DNA of 64,000 nt from Actinomycetes bacterium (GTDB taxonomy: Bacteria; Actinomycetota; Acidimicrobiia; Acidimicrobiales; Palsa-688): positions 1 to 64,000 of the forward strand of contig JAKCDU010000005.1 in the NCBI GenBank assembly GCA_021838445.1, read 5' to 3'. The notes below the pieces were generated by a model, which made no database searches, was not told the origin of the DNA, and saw only the letters and a program-made list of their open reading frames with translations. This document shows positions 25,883 through 33,075 of this stretch, piece after piece (position 1 is the stretch's first letter; the number at the start of each line of letters is the position of its first letter). A program made the position numbers and the translations under genes.

Positions 25883-26795
25883 GACCCGACCCCACCTCGG
25901 CGTCGGCCGGCTCGATGCCGTGGAACAGCTCGTCTACCGAGGGTCCCGACTCGGTCAGGTCACGGGCCACCTCGAACTCCTCGTAGGGGTAGACGGTGTC
26001 GGCCACCCCGGGGGGTAGGCCGAACCAGTGCCGGGAGGTGGGATCGACCTGGGTGGCGTGGGCCAGGAGGGCCTCCCTGGTGACCGCGGTGAAGCCGGTC
26101 ACGTCCACGACCACCTGGGGGGTCGACGGGGCCACGCCATCGCGCTCGGCTTCCTCGGCGCGCAGGAGCCGGCCGAGCCGCTCGTCGGTGAAAGGCGATT
26201 CCATACCGAGCTCGAGGAACTTGTCGTGCATGGCCCGCATGCGCTTGGTCGACCAGCGCACGTAACAGAGCCGCTGCGGCTGCCAGGCCGGTCCGGCGTC
26301 GGGGAAGCGATCGGGGTCGCCGGCCGCGTCGAAAGCCACCTCGCTGATCTCGTTGACCCGGAGGTGATCGGGATGGGGGTAGCCGCTCTGGTCCTGGGGA
26401 TAGGTGACCACCACATTTGGACGGGTGGCCCGGATGGCGGCGACGAGGCGGCCCACCGCTTCGTCGAGGGGGGCCTGAGCGAAACTCCGGGGATCGGAGT
26501 TGGCCGGCGATTCGGGCATGCCCGAATCGCGGTAGCCGAGCAGGATGACCTCGTCGTAGCCGATGATGGCGGCCGAACGCTCGAGCTCGCCCATGCGCAC
26601 CTCGTAGAGGTTCTGACGGACGTCGGGGGAGTCCATGGCCGGGTTGAGGATGTCGCCCTCCTCCCCGCCGGTGCAGGTGACAAGGACGGTCCGCACCCCG
26701 GCCGCGTGATAGCGCGCCACCGTGGCCGCCCCCTTCGATGCTTCGTCGTCGGGATGGGCGTGAACCTGCATGAGACAGAGCCCTGGTTGGGACAT
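25875..26795 (-). CDS. mca: mycothiol S-conjugate amidase
   Basis: A 306-residue LmbE/PIG-L zinc amidase. AHPDDE near residues 13-18 and YPHPDH provide the zinc ligands and catalytic Asp. The segments TCTGGEEGDILNPAMD and NEISEVAFDAAGDPDRFPDAG are specific to Mca and MshB, and overall similarity fits Mca better. The enzyme cleaves mycothiol S-conjugates to release mercapturic acids during detoxification, which shows that the host makes mycothiol. I chose ATG 26795 over a TTG two codons upstream. Confidence 0.88.
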   Translation of the reverse strand: MSQPGLCLMQVHAHPDDEASKGAATVARYHAAGVRTVLVTCTGGEEGDILNPAMDSPDVRQNLYEVRMGELERSAAIIGYDEVILLGYRDSGMPESPANSDPRSFAQAPLDEAVGRLVAAIRATRPNVVVTYPQDQSGYPHPDHLRVNEISEVAFDAAGDPDRFPDAGPAWQPQRLCYVRWSTKRMRAMHDKFLELGMESPFTDERLGRLLRAEEAERDGVAPSTPQVVVDVTGFTAVTREALLAHATQVDPTSRHWFGLPPGVADTVYPYEEFEVARDLTESGPSVDELFHGIEPADAEVGSGRG

Positions 26796-26843
26796 TCTCA
26801 AAGAATACGGGGAAAAGTGCGTTAGCTGGTCGGCGCCGACCGA

Positions 26844-27161
26844 TCAGCCGACCGCCTCCACCAGAGCGTCGACACGCCGGGCCAGGTCGAAGTCGAGGGC
26901 GGTCAGACCGCCCGCGTCGTGGGTGGTCACCGACAGCGCCACCCGGTTCCACGAGATGGTCATGTCGGGATGGTGGTCGAGCTCCTCGGCCAGGTCGGCG
27001 ATCTGGTTGACCAAGGCCACCGCGGCCCGGAAGTCGGGGCGTACCACGGTCCGCTCGATGTGGTCGCCGCGCCGGCTCCAGGCCACTTCGGCTATGGCCT
27101 GGTCGATCTCCTGCTCGCTGAGGCGGGTACGGGGCACACCCTTTTCTACACCAGGTATCAT
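26844..27161 (-). CDS. 4a-hydroxytetrahydrobiopterin dehydratase (pterin-4a-carbinolamine dehydratase)
   Basis: A 105-residue PCD/DCoH protein. The core LAEELDHHPDMTISWNRVALSVTTHDAGGLTALD contains the two adjacent His residues, the D-x-x-W pattern and the terminal helix region. The enzyme recycles pterin cofactor after aromatic amino acid hydroxylation; in bacteria without such hydroxylases it may serve other pterin reactions. It lies 48 nt upstream of the mca start on the same strand and is divergent from the VirD4-like gene. Confidence 0.88.
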   Translation of the reverse strand: MIPGVEKGVPRTRLSEQEIDQAIAEVAWSRRGDHIERTVVRPDFRAAVALVNQIADLAEELDHHPDMTISWNRVALSVTTHDAGGLTALDFDLARRVDALVEAVG

Positions 27162-27204
27162 CAGTGCCTCTCGGCGATGCGCCCTCCGTGCGAAAGGGTT
27201 GAGC

Positions 27205-28545
27205 GTGGCCGGGATTCTCGAAGAGGTGCAGACGGCGATGAGCCGGGGCGGTGGCCGCCTCTATTCGGGCACGTCACCCGGCGGCCTGGCCCTGACCGAC
27301 CCCGAGCAGGCCCTCTTGGTCCTCGGGCCTCCCCGCTCGGGCAAGACCACCTCCCTCGTGGTCCCCAATACGTTGCTGGCCCCGGGCGCGGTGGTGAGCA
27401 CCTCCACCAAGACCGACGTCCTGGCCGCCACCGTCGCCCGACGCCTCGGGCGGGGCCGATGCTGGCTGCTCGACCCGACCGGCACCATCGACCCCCCCGA
27501 CGGCGTCGAGCCGATCCGCTGGTCGCCGGTGGCCTCGGCCCGCACCTGGGAGGAGTCGCTGGTACTGGCCCGCTCGCTGGCCGGCGCGGCCCGCCCGTCG
27601 GGCCGCTCGGGCGAATCGGCCCATTGGACCGAGCGGGCCGAAGCGCTCCTAGCCCCGCTCCTGCACGCCGCCCACCTGCAGGGATCGGGGATGGATGTGG
27701 TCGTCGGTTGGATCCTGCGCCAGGAGCTCGGACCGGCCATGGCCGTCCTGGCCGGCGAGGGCCTACGGCTGGCCGGCGACGTCCTGCGCGGCATCGACTC
27801 CACCGACTCGCGCGAGCAGTCGGGCATCTGGTCATCGGCGGCCGGGCTCCTGGCCGCCTACCGTTCCGAGCGGGTGCTCGACCGGTCGGATCCCGCCAAC
27901 TTCGACCCGGCGTCCCTGGCCGCCACGACCGACACCGTGTACGTGTGCGCGCCGGCCCGCCACCAGGACCTGGTCGCCCCCGTGGTCGTAGCCTTCCTCG
28001 ACCAGGTCCGGGCCGGCGCGTTGGCCAGCACCACGTCGGGTCGACCCCACCTGACCCTGGTCCTCGACGAGTTGGCCAACATCGCCCCCATTCCCGACCT
28101 CGCCTCCTTGGTGAGCGAGGGCGGCGGCCAGGGGGTGCTCACCGTCGGCGTCCTCCAGGACCTGTCCCAGGCTCGGAGCCGGTGGGGGGTGGCGGCCGAG
28201 GGTTTCCTCTCGCTGTTCGGAGCCAAACTGGTGCTGCCCGGCATCGCCGACCTGCGAACCCTCGAGCTGGTCTCCCAGCTCGGTGGCGAGGTCGACGTAC
28301 CGGCCCGCAGCATCAGCCGGGGGCCGTGGTGGGCGGCCGGCCGGGGTGGCGCCACGGTCTCGTGGAGCGGCCACCGCCAGCGCCGCCTACCCGTGGACCT
28401 GGTTCGCCACCAGCCTCGAGGCAGCGCAGTGATCCTGTCGGGCTCGGACCACCCCGAGCAGGTTCGGCTCCCACCCTGGTGGACCCTGGAAATCCTGCGC
28501 TCGGGGGGACACACCCCCTCACCCGACCGTAGCATCGAGCGGTGA
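27205..28545 (+). CDS. VirD4/TraG/TraD-type coupling ATPase (orphan)
   Basis: A 446-residue P-loop ATPase of the type IV secretion coupling protein group. Walker A is GPPRSGKTT with K47, followed by SLVVPNTLL, then LLDPTGTIDPP, and Walker B LTLVLDELANI. The TraM-recognition region and the RS-x-WG pattern after LQDLSQ are also typical. It lacks an N-terminal membrane anchor. No relaxase, VirB4 or pilus genes are in the window, so it is either an orphan or part of an actinobacterial system whose partners lie elsewhere. Start GTG 27205; TTG 27199 is an alternative. The EamA gene overlaps its stop by 4 nt. Confidence 0.83.
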   Translation: MAGILEEVQTAMSRGGGRLYSGTSPGGLALTDPEQALLVLGPPRSGKTTSLVVPNTLLAPGAVVSTSTKTDVLAATVARRLGRGRCWLLDPTGTIDPPDGVEPIRWSPVASARTWEESLVLARSLAGAARPSGRSGESAHWTERAEALLAPLLHAAHLQGSGMDVVVGWILRQELGPAMAVLAGEGLRLAGDVLRGIDSTDSREQSGIWSSAAGLLAAYRSERVLDRSDPANFDPASLAATTDTVYVCAPARHQDLVAPVVVAFLDQVRAGALASTTSGRPHLTLVLDELANIAPIPDLASLVSEGGGQGVLTVGVLQDLSQARSRWGVAAEGFLSLFGAKLVLPGIADLRTLELVSQLGGEVDVPARSISRGPWWAAGRGGATVSWSGHRQRRLPVDLVRHQPRGSAVILSGSDHPEQVRLPPWWTLEILRSGGHTPSPDRSIER

Positions 28546-29780
28546 GCACCCGACCGGGCCTGGAGCGGACCCCGGCCATCGCCCTGGTGGGGACGGGGGC
28601 GGTTTCGGTGCAGTTCGGGGCGGCCTTCGCCACCCACCTCTTCGGTCGGGTCGGCCCCCAGGGCGCGGTGATGCTCCGCCTGGTGGCCGCCGCCGCCGTG
28701 CTGCTCGTCGCCCGGCCACGGGCCCGGCCACGGGCCCGGTCGGTGGCCCGGTCGGTGGCCCGGAGTCGGTCCCGCTCGGACCGGCTGGTGGTGGTGTCGT
28801 TCGGTCTGGCCCTGGCCGCCATGAACCTGAGCTTCTACGAAGCCATCGCCCGCATCCCTCTGGGAGTGGCGGTGACGGTGGAGTTCTCCGGTCCCCTGGT
28901 TCTGGCCCTCGTGTCGTCGCGGCAATTCACCGACGGCCTGTGGGCGCTCGGCGCCGGAGCCGGAGTGGCCCTGCTGGCGGCGCGCACCGGAGGAGGGTTG
29001 AACCTCACCGGGTTGCTCTTCGCCCTCCTGGCCGGGGTGTTGTGGGTGGCCTACATCCTCCTGAGCAAGCAGACCGGGTCCCGCTTCGAGTCGCTCGACG
29101 GCCTGACGTGGGCCATGGCCCTAGCCGCCGCCGTCACCGTGCCGTCCGGGCTCGTTGCGGGCGGCGACCGCCTCCTGCGGCCGGGGGTGCTCGCTCTAGG
29201 TCTGGCGGTGGGGGTGATGTCCTCGGTGGTGCCCTACAGCCTGGAGCTGCTGGCCCTGCGCAAGGTCACCCCCCGGGCGTTCGGGGTGATGCTCAGCCTG
29301 GAGCCGGCCCTCGCCGCCGCCGCCGGCTTCGCCGTCCTCGGCCAGCACCTCGACGGCCGGGAATGGCTGGCGCTGGGTCTGGTCATGGGTGCCAACCTGG
29401 GAAATACCGTGGCCGGATCCCGGCGCGTGCCTCCAGTCGTCGACCCCGCTCTTGAACGATCCCCAGCCCCTCCCGGCCCTGAGCGCAACTGCCACTCAGC
29501 CGGGAAGGCTCGTGGCGGCCAGGCACACCCCAGCGGTGATGACCAAAGCGATGGCGTCGGCCGGACCGGGCCGGGCCACCCGGGCGGCGATACGGCCGGT
29601 CCCCCCGCGCGCCGTTATGGCTTCGGCCAGCTCGCCGGCCCGGCGCACCGAGACGGCAATAGCCGCGACCATCAGATCGACGATCTCGTCCAGCCACCGC
29701 TCGACGTCGCCCCGCCCGGGCCGCTCGGGGGCGGGTCGCAGGCGCCGTGCCGCCAGCAAGGTCCGCATCTCGCCCACTAG
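28542..29780 (+). CDS. EamA family transporter (RhtA-like exporter) with a doubtful C-terminal extension
   Basis: A multi-pass drug/metabolite transporter with ten predicted membrane segments in two EamA repeats. AAMNLSFYEAIARIPLGVAVTVEFSGPL and the later SSVVPYSLELLALRKVTPRAFGVMLSLEPALAA match RhtA-type amino acid exporters. It starts at GTG 28542 in a GTGA overlap with the VirD4-like gene. The family normally ends near codon 300, but the frame stays open to 29780, adding about 100 hydrophilic residues that run antisense through the ecfT 3' end. A TGA at 29453-29455 in another frame would end the protein normally after a one-base shift. Confidence 0.78.
   Translation: MSTRPGLERTPAIALVGTGAVSVQFGAAFATHLFGRVGPQGAVMLRLVAAAAVLLVARPRARPRARSVARSVARSRSRSDRLVVVSFGLALAAMNLSFYEAIARIPLGVAVTVEFSGPLVLALVSSRQFTDGLWALGAGAGVALLAARTGGGLNLTGLLFALLAGVLWVAYILLSKQTGSRFESLDGLTWAMALAAAVTVPSGLVAGGDRLLRPGVLALGLAVGVMSSVVPYSLELLALRKVTPRAFGVMLSLEPALAAAAGFAVLGQHLDGREWLALGLVMGANLGNTVAGSRRVPPVVDPALERSPAPPGPERNCHSAGKARGGQAHPSGDDQSDGVGRTGPGHPGGDTAGPPARRYGFGQLAGPAHRDGNSRDHQIDDLVQPPLDVAPPGPLGGGSQAPCRQQGPHLAH
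28710..28757. repeat. 12-bp tandem repeats coding an Arg-rich loop in the EamA protein
   Basis: Two copies of GCCCGGCCACGG are followed by two copies of GCCCGGTCGGTG. Translated, they give RPRA RPRA and RSVA RSVA, a strongly basic loop between the second and third membrane segments. By the positive-inside rule this loop should be cytoplasmic. The length is probably variable between strains. Confidence 0.8.
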
Positions 29781-30329
29781 GAGCGGGAGGCTGCGCACGC
29801 ACAGCGCCACGGCCACCGCCAGCTCGTCCACGGGTACCCGGATCAGCGCGAGGGGTGACAGCAGGCGGCTCATGGCCGGGGCGATCTCGCCCAGCGGGGT
29901 GGTCCAGCCGAGCAGGGCGGCGGCGATCAGCAGCACCGCTCCGACCATCACGAACCGGGTGTAGGCGTCGATGCCGCCGAAGCCCAGATGGACCGGCCCC
30001 ACCGACAGGTGGGGGGAGCCCCCGGCCACCGACGCCAGGCCCCCGGTGACGAGGATCACCATCCAGAACAGCCTGGGGGGCCGCGGCCATGCCCCGGCCG
30101 GGATGCGGGCCATGAGGACGGTGGCCAGAACCAGCGCGCTGACCAGGCCGATGGTCGTCCAGTTCGGGAAGTACGACAGCGTGATGCTGAGCCCGGCCAC
30201 CGCCAGGATCTTGGTGCCCGCCCACAGCCGGTGGACCGGGGAGTCCACCTTCACCTCCCTCAGGAGGTTCAGCTGCGGCGGCCGGTACGGCTCCCTGTCG
30301 CCGGTGGCCCCGGCGGCTCTCCTCGTCAC
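29496..30329 (-). CDS. ECF transporter transmembrane component EcfT
   Basis: A 277-residue CbiQ/EcfT protein with about five membrane segments. SPVHRLWAGTKILAVAGLSI is the family start; the two coupling-helix Ala-Arg-Gly type motifs are represented by LLAARRLRP and AITARGG. It joins the ATPases to the substrate-binding S component. GTG 30329 overlaps the stop of the fused S/ATPase gene by 4 nt, so the two are translationally coupled. Its 3' end overlaps the long tail of the opposing EamA frame by 285 nt. Confidence 0.87.
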   Translation of the reverse strand: MTRRAAGATGDREPYRPPQLNLLREVKVDSPVHRLWAGTKILAVAGLSITLSYFPNWTTIGLVSALVLATVLMARIPAGAWPRPPRLFWMVILVTGGLASVAGGSPHLSVGPVHLGFGGIDAYTRFVMVGAVLLIAAALLGWTTPLGEIAPAMSRLLSPLALIRVPVDELAVAVALCVRSLPLLVGEMRTLLAARRLRPAPERPGRGDVERWLDEIVDLMVAAIAVSVRRAGELAEAITARGGTGRIAARVARPGPADAIALVITAGVCLAATSLPG

Positions 30330-32371
30330 AGGCCGGCCGCTTCGGTCGTCGAGTCGGCCACGACCCGGCCCGAGTCCAGGCGGATCACCCGGTCGCAGAG
30401 CCGCTCCATGCCGTGGAGGTCGTGGGAGATGACCACGACGGTCAATCCGCCGCCGCTGCGCAGCCCCGCGAGAAGGTCGATGAGGCTCTCCCGGCTGGGC
30501 CGGTCGAGGCCGGCCATGGGCTCGTCCAGCACCAGCACCGACGGGTGCCGGGCCAGGATGCCAGCCAGCGCCACCCGCCGCTGCTCCCCACCGCTGAGCG
30601 AGTCCACCCGCCGGTCGACAAAGCGGTTCGGGTCCAATCCCACCGAGCGCAGAGCGGCGGCCACCTCCGCGTCGCTGGCCGCCCCGGCCGCCCGCACGTC
30701 GTCTCCGACCTCGGCCCGCTGCAGCTGCAACCGGGCGTGCTGGAAGGCCAGCCCTACGCTCCCGACGTTGGTCCGCACCGGGGTGTCACCGAGCCGGCAC
30801 TCACCGTAGGTCGGTCGCAGCAGACCGGCCATGATCCACGCCAAGGTCGATTTGCCCGATCCATTACCCCCCACGATCAGGGCCCCCTCGCCCGGGTCGA
30901 ACGCCAGGTCCACCGACTGCAGGGCGGTGCCGGACCAGGGAGTGCCGACCCCGTAGACGTGGGTCACGGAGCTGACCTCGAGGCGGAGCGGACGGCGCGG
31001 CGCCCCGCTCGACGAGCCGAGCAGTGGTGGCGGCGGCGGGGCTGCGGCTCGGCCGGGGACCGGGTGGTCGGCGACCATGCGTCCGTGGTCCATCCGCAGC
31101 CGGCGATCGGCCACGGCCGCCTCCTCGTCGCGGTGGGTCACGTGGACGACCGCCGTGGCGTAAGCGGCGGGGAGGCGGCGCAGCAGGGCGGTCAGGTCGC
31201 GGCGGCCCTCCTCGTCGATCATCGCCGTCGACTCGTCGGAGAGCAGCAGCCGGGGTCGGCGGGCGAGGGCGGCGGCCACGGCCAGACGCTGCAGCTGGCC
31301 GCCCGACAGGGCCGATGTCTCCCTGTCGCCGAGTCCATCGAGGCCCACGGATCGCAGCAGACCTTCGATGTCCACCTGTTCGTGGTCGGCGAGCCCCCAC
31401 ACCACGTCATCGGCGACCCTCACCCCCAGCACCTGGGTCTCGGGATGCTGCATGATCAGCGCCGTACCGCCGGGCCGGCCCAACCCGGGGCTGCCCGGAC
31501 GGGTCACCACCCCGGTGGTGGGGGCTTTGCCGGCGAGGATGCGCGTAAGTGTCGACTTGCCCGACCCATTGTCCCCGACCAGGGCCACCATCTCGGCGGG
31601 CGCCACCGTGAGGTCCACTCCCTGCAGGGCGTCGGTGTCGGTGCCCGGGTAACGGTAGGTCACCGCATCGACTCGAACCGGTACCGGCTCGGGTACCGAG
31701 GCCGGGTCGGCCGGGGTGGCGTCGAAGCGGTCCTGAGCCCGGATCCACTGCAGCCTCTCCAGGACGGCGCCGAGGAAGACCCAACCGAGCAGGGCGAACC
31801 ACACCGTCGCCACCACCACGATCACTGCGATGGTGACCCACCAGTACCGGATGCTGTCGTGGATGAAGGTGTCCAGGGTGTCGAGAGCGCCCTTGGGGAC
31901 CCGCAGCGCGACGAGGATGTGACGAACCCCTTTCCAGGTGTTGGTCACCTGCAGCAGGGTGAGCTTGCGCAGCGATCCGAACACCGCCAGCAGACCGACG
32001 CTGGCGGCGGCCAGCACCGGTCCGATGACCGCCACCCCGGCGGCGACCACGGCCGGTCCCCAGTCGCGCCGCTTGGCCGTGCCCACCAGACCTCCTACCG
32101 CGGCGCACTCCACGATGTTGGTGACCGATCCCGTGCCGGCCACGAGGAAGCACAGCACCGCGGCGGCGAACGCGGCGGCCATCAGGGCCCGGAAGCGGTG
32201 GCGGTGGGCCACGACACCGAGTGGCACGACGGCGAAGGCGGCGATGACGCTCAGATGAGGAAGGAACCAGCCGGCCACGGTGAGGACCACGGCGAGGGTG
32301 GCGAGGACCGCGGCGGTGGCCAACTCGAGCGGCCGGAGCGGCCCCTTGGGCCGGGTCGGCTCCTCGGGCAT
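30326..32371 (-). CDS. fused ECF transporter: S-component-like membrane domain plus two EcfA ATPase domains
   Basis: A 681-residue fusion. Residues about 14-230 hold five or six membrane segments (LELATAAVLATLAVVLTVAGW onward, possible S component or DUF2232-like). Two ATPase domains follow: Walker A K272 with signature LSGGQLQR, and Walker A K507 with LSGGEQRR. The first Walker B reads LLLSDESTA and the second VLVLDEP. With EcfT downstream this gives a complete vitamin or metal uptake system from two genes. ATG 32371 has GAGGGG just upstream; the longer open frame is low complexity. The substrate is unknown and no riboswitch is evident upstream. Confidence 0.85.
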   Translation of the reverse strand: MPEEPTRPKGPLRPLELATAAVLATLAVVLTVAGWFLPHLSVIAAFAVVPLGVVAHRHRFRALMAAAFAAAVLCFLVAGTGSVTNIVECAAVGGLVGTAKRRDWGPAVVAAGVAVIGPVLAAASVGLLAVFGSLRKLTLLQVTNTWKGVRHILVALRVPKGALDTLDTFIHDSIRYWWVTIAVIVVVATVWFALLGWVFLGAVLERLQWIRAQDRFDATPADPASVPEPVPVRVDAVTYRYPGTDTDALQGVDLTVAPAEMVALVGDNGSGKSTLTRILAGKAPTTGVVTRPGSPGLGRPGGTALIMQHPETQVLGVRVADDVVWGLADHEQVDIEGLLRSVGLDGLGDRETSALSGGQLQRLAVAAALARRPRLLLSDESTAMIDEEGRRDLTALLRRLPAAYATAVVHVTHRDEEAAVADRRLRMDHGRMVADHPVPGRAAAPPPPPLLGSSSGAPRRPLRLEVSSVTHVYGVGTPWSGTALQSVDLAFDPGEGALIVGGNGSGKSTLAWIMAGLLRPTYGECRLGDTPVRTNVGSVGLAFQHARLQLQRAEVGDDVRAAGAASDAEVAAALRSVGLDPNRFVDRRVDSLSGGEQRRVALAGILARHPSVLVLDEPMAGLDRPSRESLIDLLAGLRSGGGLTVVVISHDLHGMERLCDRVIRLDSGRVVADSTTEAAGL

Positions 32372-32493: not shown

Positions 32494-33075
32494 TCAGGCC
32501 GCCACCTGCGGGAAACGCCTCCAACCGGCGATCTGGACGGCCCCTCGGGCGTCGACCATCCGGGCGGACAGGCCCAGGGAGGAAACCCAGTCCACCGCGT
32601 CCTCACCTCGCGACAGAGCCGCCAGCGCCGTGGCCCGGGCCAGCCGGCAGGACCTGGCCGCCACCGTCACGATCCTCCACGGGTTGGTCGGCTCGGCGGC
32701 ACGGACGGTCGCGAGGCCCCCGGCGTCGAGGCGTACCGACAACGGCTCCGGCACCGAGCCGTCGGTGATCCGGACGGGCCAGCCACCGGCCGGGGCCGAC
32801 CCGGCGGTGGCCAGGTCACCGCCCAGACTGACCAGCACCCCGGCGCGTGCGGCGCGCGCCGCCCGCAGGGCCAGGCGGTCGGCCCCTCGAGCCAGATGGG
32901 GGCCGCCGGCCAGGTCCATCGGCGTCAGGTCGCGGCGCACCAGCAACGCGGCGCGGCCTATCGTCCCCGGTTGGGTGGACACGACGGTGACCTGGCAGCC
33001 GCCGACGGTGAAGGCGGCCCGGCCCAAAGACCCGGCCCGGGTGATTCGGATCGGCTCGGTGGTCTGCATGTCCAT
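32494..33075 (-). CDS. short ApbE-like (FAD:protein FMN transferase family) protein
   Basis: A 193-residue protein that resembles only the middle and C-terminal part of ApbE. ARGAD at residues 62-66 matches the K/R-G-x-x-D turn, GGD at 85-87 matches the conserved LGGD, and the terminal DARGAVQIAGW resembles the last strands. The N-terminal half of normal ApbE (about 300 residues) is absent, so the flavin site is probably incomplete. It lies 63 nt downstream of dnaE2 on the same strand and may be read from the same SOS promoter. It may be a remnant or a repurposed domain. Confidence 0.62.
   Translation of the reverse strand: MDMQTTEPIRITRAGSLGRAAFTVGGCQVTVVSTQPGTIGRAALLVRRDLTPMDLAGGPHLARGADRLALRAARAARAGVLVSLGGDLATAGSAPAGGWPVRITDGSVPEPLSVRLDAGGLATVRAAEPTNPWRIVTVAARSCRLARATALAALSRGEDAVDWVSSLGLSARMVDARGAVQIAGWRRFPQVAA

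Follow-up and report, generated by a model that had tools for sequence, protein, structure and literature searches.

Is the S component of an ECF transporter always a separate protein, or can it be built permanently into the chain that carries the ATPases? The question is raised by a gene pair in the window, a 64,000-nucleotide stretch of contig JAKCDU010000005.1 from an Acidimicrobiia bacterium, in which a first-pass annotation made from the letters alone had proposed an S-like membrane domain fused to both ATPases. In the current view of ECF transport, the S component docks on the energising module and topples in the membrane, and where a module is shared the S components compete for docking. 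The evidence presented below makes it highly probable that the pair encodes a dedicated ECF-type ABC importer in which the S component and both ATPases form one covalent chain. The features concerned are:

30326 to 32371, minus strand: S-A-A' fusion gene, 681 aa, ATG to TGA, with a DUF2232 domain and two EcfA-type ATPase domains
31697 to 32371, minus strand: N-terminal S-component-like membrane domain (DUF2232), residues 1-225 (Pfam, AlphaFold model, structural matches)
30326 to 30329, minus strand: GTGA overlap formed by the stop of the fusion gene and the start of ecfT (sequence)
29496 to 30329, minus strand: ecfT, transmembrane coupling component, 277 aa, GTG start (Pfam CbiQ, A-R motifs)

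The gene pair in the window

Translation placed the two genes at exactly 29496-32371, the range that had been annotated, and returned a single 681-residue protein with a membrane domain followed by two complete ATPases, their Walker A lysines standing at K272 and K507 as first described; the GTGA overlap that couples the fusion gene to ecfT was likewise read in the sequence. The G+C content at the three codon positions was strongly of the coding type (0.76/0.52/0.89 for the fusion gene and 0.73/0.56/0.92 for ecfT), and the fusion protein was conserved from end to end with a Mycobacterium ulcerans protein (46% identity over 683 residues), as was EcfT with its M. ulcerans counterpart (46% over 266 residues). 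Full-length conservation of the fusion protein together with coding-type G+C places the gene pair far beyond chance. The window assembly consists of 117 contigs, which could favour an assembly or sequencing artefact merging neighbouring genes, but the coding-type G+C runs throughout the fusion gene and the same fusion recurs without interruption in dozens of independent genomes (M. ulcerans NZ_CP083743 among them), by which this explanation is already refuted and its probability reduced to practically nil.

Pfam ABC_tran matched two stretches of the fusion protein, at about residues 232-435 and 465-677. Each ATPase domain contains all the catalytic motifs: the first has the LSGGQ signature at 355 and Walker B (DE) at 375, the second LSGGE at 592 and Walker B (DE) at 613, and an H-loop histidine follows in each. 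The best NCBIfam matches were ECF_ATPase_1 for the first domain and ECF_ATPase_2 for the second, both below the curated cut-offs, so that by sequence the first ATPase resembles EcfA1 and the second EcfA2. EcfT scored 93 bits with Pfam CbiQ, for which the cut-off is 25, and has A-R motifs at two places, residues 193 and 240.

Three other genes were noted around the pair. Directly upstream of the fusion gene lies a small ApbE-like gene (32494-33075, minus strand), the match being sub-threshold (21.7 vs 25.6 bits). On the plus strand, the ORF 26770-28545 encodes a domain of conjugative coupling proteins (T4SS-DNA_transf, TraG-D_C). As listed, the start of this ORF overlaps a gene for pterin-4a-carbinolamine dehydratase (26844-27161, minus strand), so that translation probably begins at a more internal position.

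Family and predicted fold of the N-terminal domain

The N-terminal domain was assigned to DUF2232 (PF09991) with 37.3 bits against a gathering cut-off of 27.8, and all 22 members of its alignment matched the same family with E-values of 0.1 or better; in the window domain the match is a partial one, covering only positions 2-188 of the 290 in the profile. In the Pfam search no other S family matched it above cut-off. The hydrophobic domain spans about 210 residues, and the AlphaFold model, built from the 22 sequences with a mean pLDDT of 89.8, has a helical membrane region at about residues 14-218, which fits the "about six" membrane segments first counted. The positive-inside pattern suggests that both ends of the membrane domain lie inside, the conserved arginines R57, R59, R61 and R101 falling in predicted cytosolic loops, and an extra helix (132-155) preceding the last membrane segments is probably amphipathic.

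The top five Foldseek matches in the PDB were all S components (four TmRibU chains and 5EDL; best E-value 0.029). On realignment the six best chains were those of RibU, TmRibU, FolT and ThiT, with Z-scores of 8.6-9.9 over 150-161 aligned residues, whereas unrelated structures did not exceed a Z-score of 7.6, and their coverage was roughly half. Taken one by one these matches are modest, with no E-value below 0.001 and Z-scores under 13 for a helical bundle, and the scores of RibU, FolT and ThiT are almost level. That several S families agree across the full domain is, however, hard to account for other than by an S fold, and the model thus supports a six-helix S-component fold for the N-terminal domain. 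RibU, FolT and ThiT share this predicted fold but are separate proteins, with 14-18% identity to the window domain in the structural alignments. The S-like reading and the DUF2232-like one, which the first-pass annotation had offered as alternatives, therefore both hold: the domain passes the Pfam cut-off for DUF2232, its predicted model best matches solved S components of ECF transporters, and weaker sequence links lead to ThiT, BioY and ECF_trnsprt.

The links to ThiT and BioY were traced with a profile of the domain. Searched against 296 genomes of the phylum, the profile gave six weak matches below its clear homologues and the stand-alone DUF2232 proteins. Four of these were ThiT and one was BioY, the sixth being unrelated; Pfam confirmed one ThiT and the BioY. 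The weak match L058 was rejected, as it is not recognisable as an S component. ThiT was also the best PDB sequence match of the profile (E-value 0.044). Profile-profile comparison gave a probability of 96.5% for stand-alone DUF2232, 18.6% for ThiT and 0.7% for EcfT, used as control; because the value for ThiT is low, homology to the named S families relies on several weak lines taken together with the fold.

Residues P38, P50, G79, G93, G97, R135 and W177 were invariant in 76 sequences from both lineages described below. A candidate for the AXXXA motif with which helix 1 of an S component docks on EcfT is present in the window protein, which is alanine-rich, as A20-x3-A24; A20 was found in 78% of the 76 sequences, and position 24 is often glycine in the relatives. 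At two loci (L022 5355-7001 and L076 1407-3053) the N-terminal domain is enlarged by a long insertion contributing further predicted helices, which brings the ORF to 11, and the fusion extends no further than the first ATPase.

Stand-alone DUF2232 proteins of the YybS type have a homologous membrane domain but eight predicted helices and no ATPase. One representative (L067) matched DUF2232 with 180 bits over the whole profile (1-290), and a stand-alone protein matched ECF_trnsprt with an E-value of 6e-6, just below the cut-off. At five loci (L067-L071) the stand-alone genes lie in an rpsF/ssb/rplI/dnaB-like neighbourhood, named by sight, with no ECF genes; stand-alone members with no ECF genes nearby imply that the DUF2232 family may have other roles. 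For the branch found in the window, the present results point to a likely role for what is a domain of unknown function.

Distribution and architecture in relatives

The domain was detected in 14 of 198 genomes of the class Acidimicrobiia. It was also present in 90 of 151 genomes, representing 19 of 31 genera, of a family that we equate with Mycobacteriaceae as GTDB broadly defines them, given the position of M. ulcerans within this family in the tree. In this census the N-terminal domain was joined to the first ATPase at every locus with enough sequence, and EcfT was adjoining or fused everywhere, the exceptions being decayed copies and loci at the end of a contig. In most loci the second ATPase was fused as well; it was a separate next gene at seven loci (L022, L027, L032, L034, L035, L037 and L038) and was fused to EcfT instead at L084. 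A fusion of S to A, for which the first reading had recommended a search in other genomes, is thus conserved in Acidimicrobiia and Mycobacteriaceae rather than rare.

By inspection, with most neighbours named by sight, no neighbour other than EcfT was shared between the two lineages, and gene order differed. Ku- or LigD-like genes, also named by sight, were seen near the ECF genes in both lineages (L108, L110, L111, L072 and L037). Plasmid searches recovered copies from Rhodococcus and M. ulcerans only. Truncated copies lacking EcfT, with DUF2232 and part of one ATPase, were seen at L086 (7094-8137), on a Rhodococcus linear plasmid, and at L120 (5821-6675), in a genome (G490) that has a full copy too.

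Single-chain S-A-A'-T transporters

In 26 loci, from 26 genomes and seven genera of Mycobacteriaceae, EcfT was also part of the chain, giving one uninterrupted S-A-A'-T frame (L108, L109, L111, L114, L131-L135, L110, L112, L113, L116, L139-L145, L122, L157, L158, L161, L163 and L155). Three genera contributed most of them (g288, nine; g296, eight; g306, five), with one each from g285, g290, g294 and g138. Counted from the start of the N-terminal domain, the chains are slightly longer than 900 residues. In L108, the one scanned with Pfam, all four parts were over cut-off (DUF2232, 39.2 bits; two ABC domains; CbiQ, 56.6 bits). Codon-position G+C was checked in seven loci: it remained of the coding type through the T part in all of them, and across the A'-T junction in most.

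In the topology of a FastTree tree, considered apart from its support values, 15 of the 16 sampled single-chain proteins formed one clade, and L155 stood apart among the g138 proteins; lying outside the clade, it suggests that the last fusion, that of EcfT, probably took place at least two times. The genus g138 is probably Mycobacterium, as M. ulcerans falls among its members in the tree. Three genomes (G584, G595 and G596) have a one-chain copy and a two-gene copy side by side. FAD-monooxygenase-like genes, named by sight, were seen beside or near the one-chain transporter at L108, L111, L112 and L116.

Fusions within ECF systems have precedents. That A1-A2 fusions are known, as the first-pass annotation stated, agrees with the literature (PMC6828968), but its statement that S is normally separate overlooked published joins of S to A and of S to T: the parts of PMC9973259 drawn on here report EetB-ECF-A and EetB-ECF-T fusions and use them to argue that EetB belongs to the S components. 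Like the window protein, these are single chains in which S is joined to another ECF component, here an ECF ATPase or EcfT; the same parts of that paper describe no S-A-A' or S-A-A'-T chains, and the likeness of EetB to the DUF2232 fusions considered here is one of architecture. In the literature consulted, which extended neither to the 2009 ECF survey nor to most subscription papers, DUF2232 is not mentioned, and neither a one-chain S-A-A'-T transporter nor a DUF2232-type S family joined to A-A' was found; both appear to be undescribed.

Search for a separate S component and for substrate clues

The need for a separate S gene would have spoken against the first reading, and none was seen next to the ECF genes in the loci examined. 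The host genome does encode a second ECF system, on contig C18 (L066 5900-9587), whose operon comprises T, A-A' and an S gene of its own. A search of the genome for BioY, CbiM, ThiT and ECF_trnsprt (completeness 96.25, so that about 4% may be missing) found no BioY, CbiM or ThiT over cut-off, and a single ECF_trnsprt-like gene, the one inside that T, A-A', S operon.

These results bear on the possibility that the DUF2232 domain, though S-like in fold, takes no part in transport and instead anchors or regulates the ATPases, and that an unlinked S component encoded elsewhere provides specificity. The S fold is found in the non-transport proteins MreD and 5TMR sensor kinases (PMC11109136), so the fold by itself is no proof of function, and the stand-alone DUF2232 genes away from ECF genes, in their ribosomal-protein and replication neighbourhood, would agree with such a role. 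Among the S families searched, however, the host offers as a candidate only the S gene of the other operon, the loci examined show none beside the module, and the single-chain proteins unite exactly the four parts S, A, A' and T, which argues that the N-terminal domain is the fourth subunit. We regard a non-transport role as improbable, and an S component that works within its own chain as the better reading.

Clues to the substrate were sought in the neighbourhood and in the fold. No riboswitch was found near the window locus nor in 21 related loci. A flavin substrate, considered on account of the upstream ApbE-like gene, was rejected, the match being sub-threshold and better ApbE genes being present elsewhere in the genome. 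In Listeria, EetB is described as a FAD-binding S component of an ECF system with extracytosolic flavin trafficking, in the parts of PMC9973259 used here, and with this precedent the window transporter might move its substrate outwards, or take part in EetB-like flavin trafficking, instead of importing a vitamin. RibU as top structural match, the ApbE-like gene and the FAD-monooxygenase-like genes beside some single-chain copies would fit, but the Z-scores of RibU are nearly tied with those of FolT and ThiT, no S family other than DUF2232 matched over cut-off, and the ApbE-like neighbour is degenerate and was seen in the window only. Outward or flavin traffic is therefore very unlikely, and import is retained as the preferred reading.

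Proposed mechanism

As an importer, the N-terminal DUF2232 domain would capture a micronutrient from outside, EcfT would couple this S domain to the ATPase pair, and ATP binding and hydrolysis by both ATPase domains would drive a cycle of docking and toppling of the S domain that ends with release of the substrate inside. A plausible candidate for the binding site is the region where, in the model, the last membrane helices reach the extracellular side and where the invariant R135 and W177 are found. The linker between S and A1 is short, with the last predicted helix ending at 218 and A1 starting near 232, which argues that the domain is not exchangeable for another S component and that the module serves one substrate. 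The direction of uptake, the toppling and the single dedicated substrate are inferred.

A tethered S domain, above all in the one-chain S-A-A'-T proteins, makes the need for release and exchange of S during transport directly testable, and it would provide structural studies with a complex whose stoichiometry is fixed. We consider it reasonably likely that these proteins represent a class of ECF transporters in which S never leaves the module, with a DUF2232-type S permanently tethered to the ATPases and a specificity that has yet to be attributed to any S family. The ECF system of M. tuberculosis would belong to this class, which would culminate in the single-chain S-A-A'-T proteins of Mycobacteriaceae.

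Mycobacterial relatives

The M. ulcerans record NZ_CP083743 (L087) contains the same pair, LAZ99_RS27975/RS27970, annotated as "DUF2232 domain-containing protein" and "EcfT". The S-A-A' and T layout is that of the window, but the gene neighbourhood is unlike it, the pair being flanked by a MarR gene and by Lrp/AsnC, ddaH and rocD. We take this gene order to be that of the Rv2319c-Rv2327 block of M. tuberculosis, in which case the fusion protein would be the counterpart of Rv2326c and EcfT that of Rv2325c. According to a review, the ECF system of M. tuberculosis consists of Rv2325c/Rv2326c, with Rv2326c regarded as the ATPase and no substrate assigned; in the literature found on Rv2326c no transport function was given and no substrate was named. 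The present analysis proposes where the S component of this system, left unsettled by the review, is located, namely, if this correspondence holds, in the N-terminal domain of Rv2326c. The M. ulcerans record is labelled as a plasmid, a label that may be wrong.
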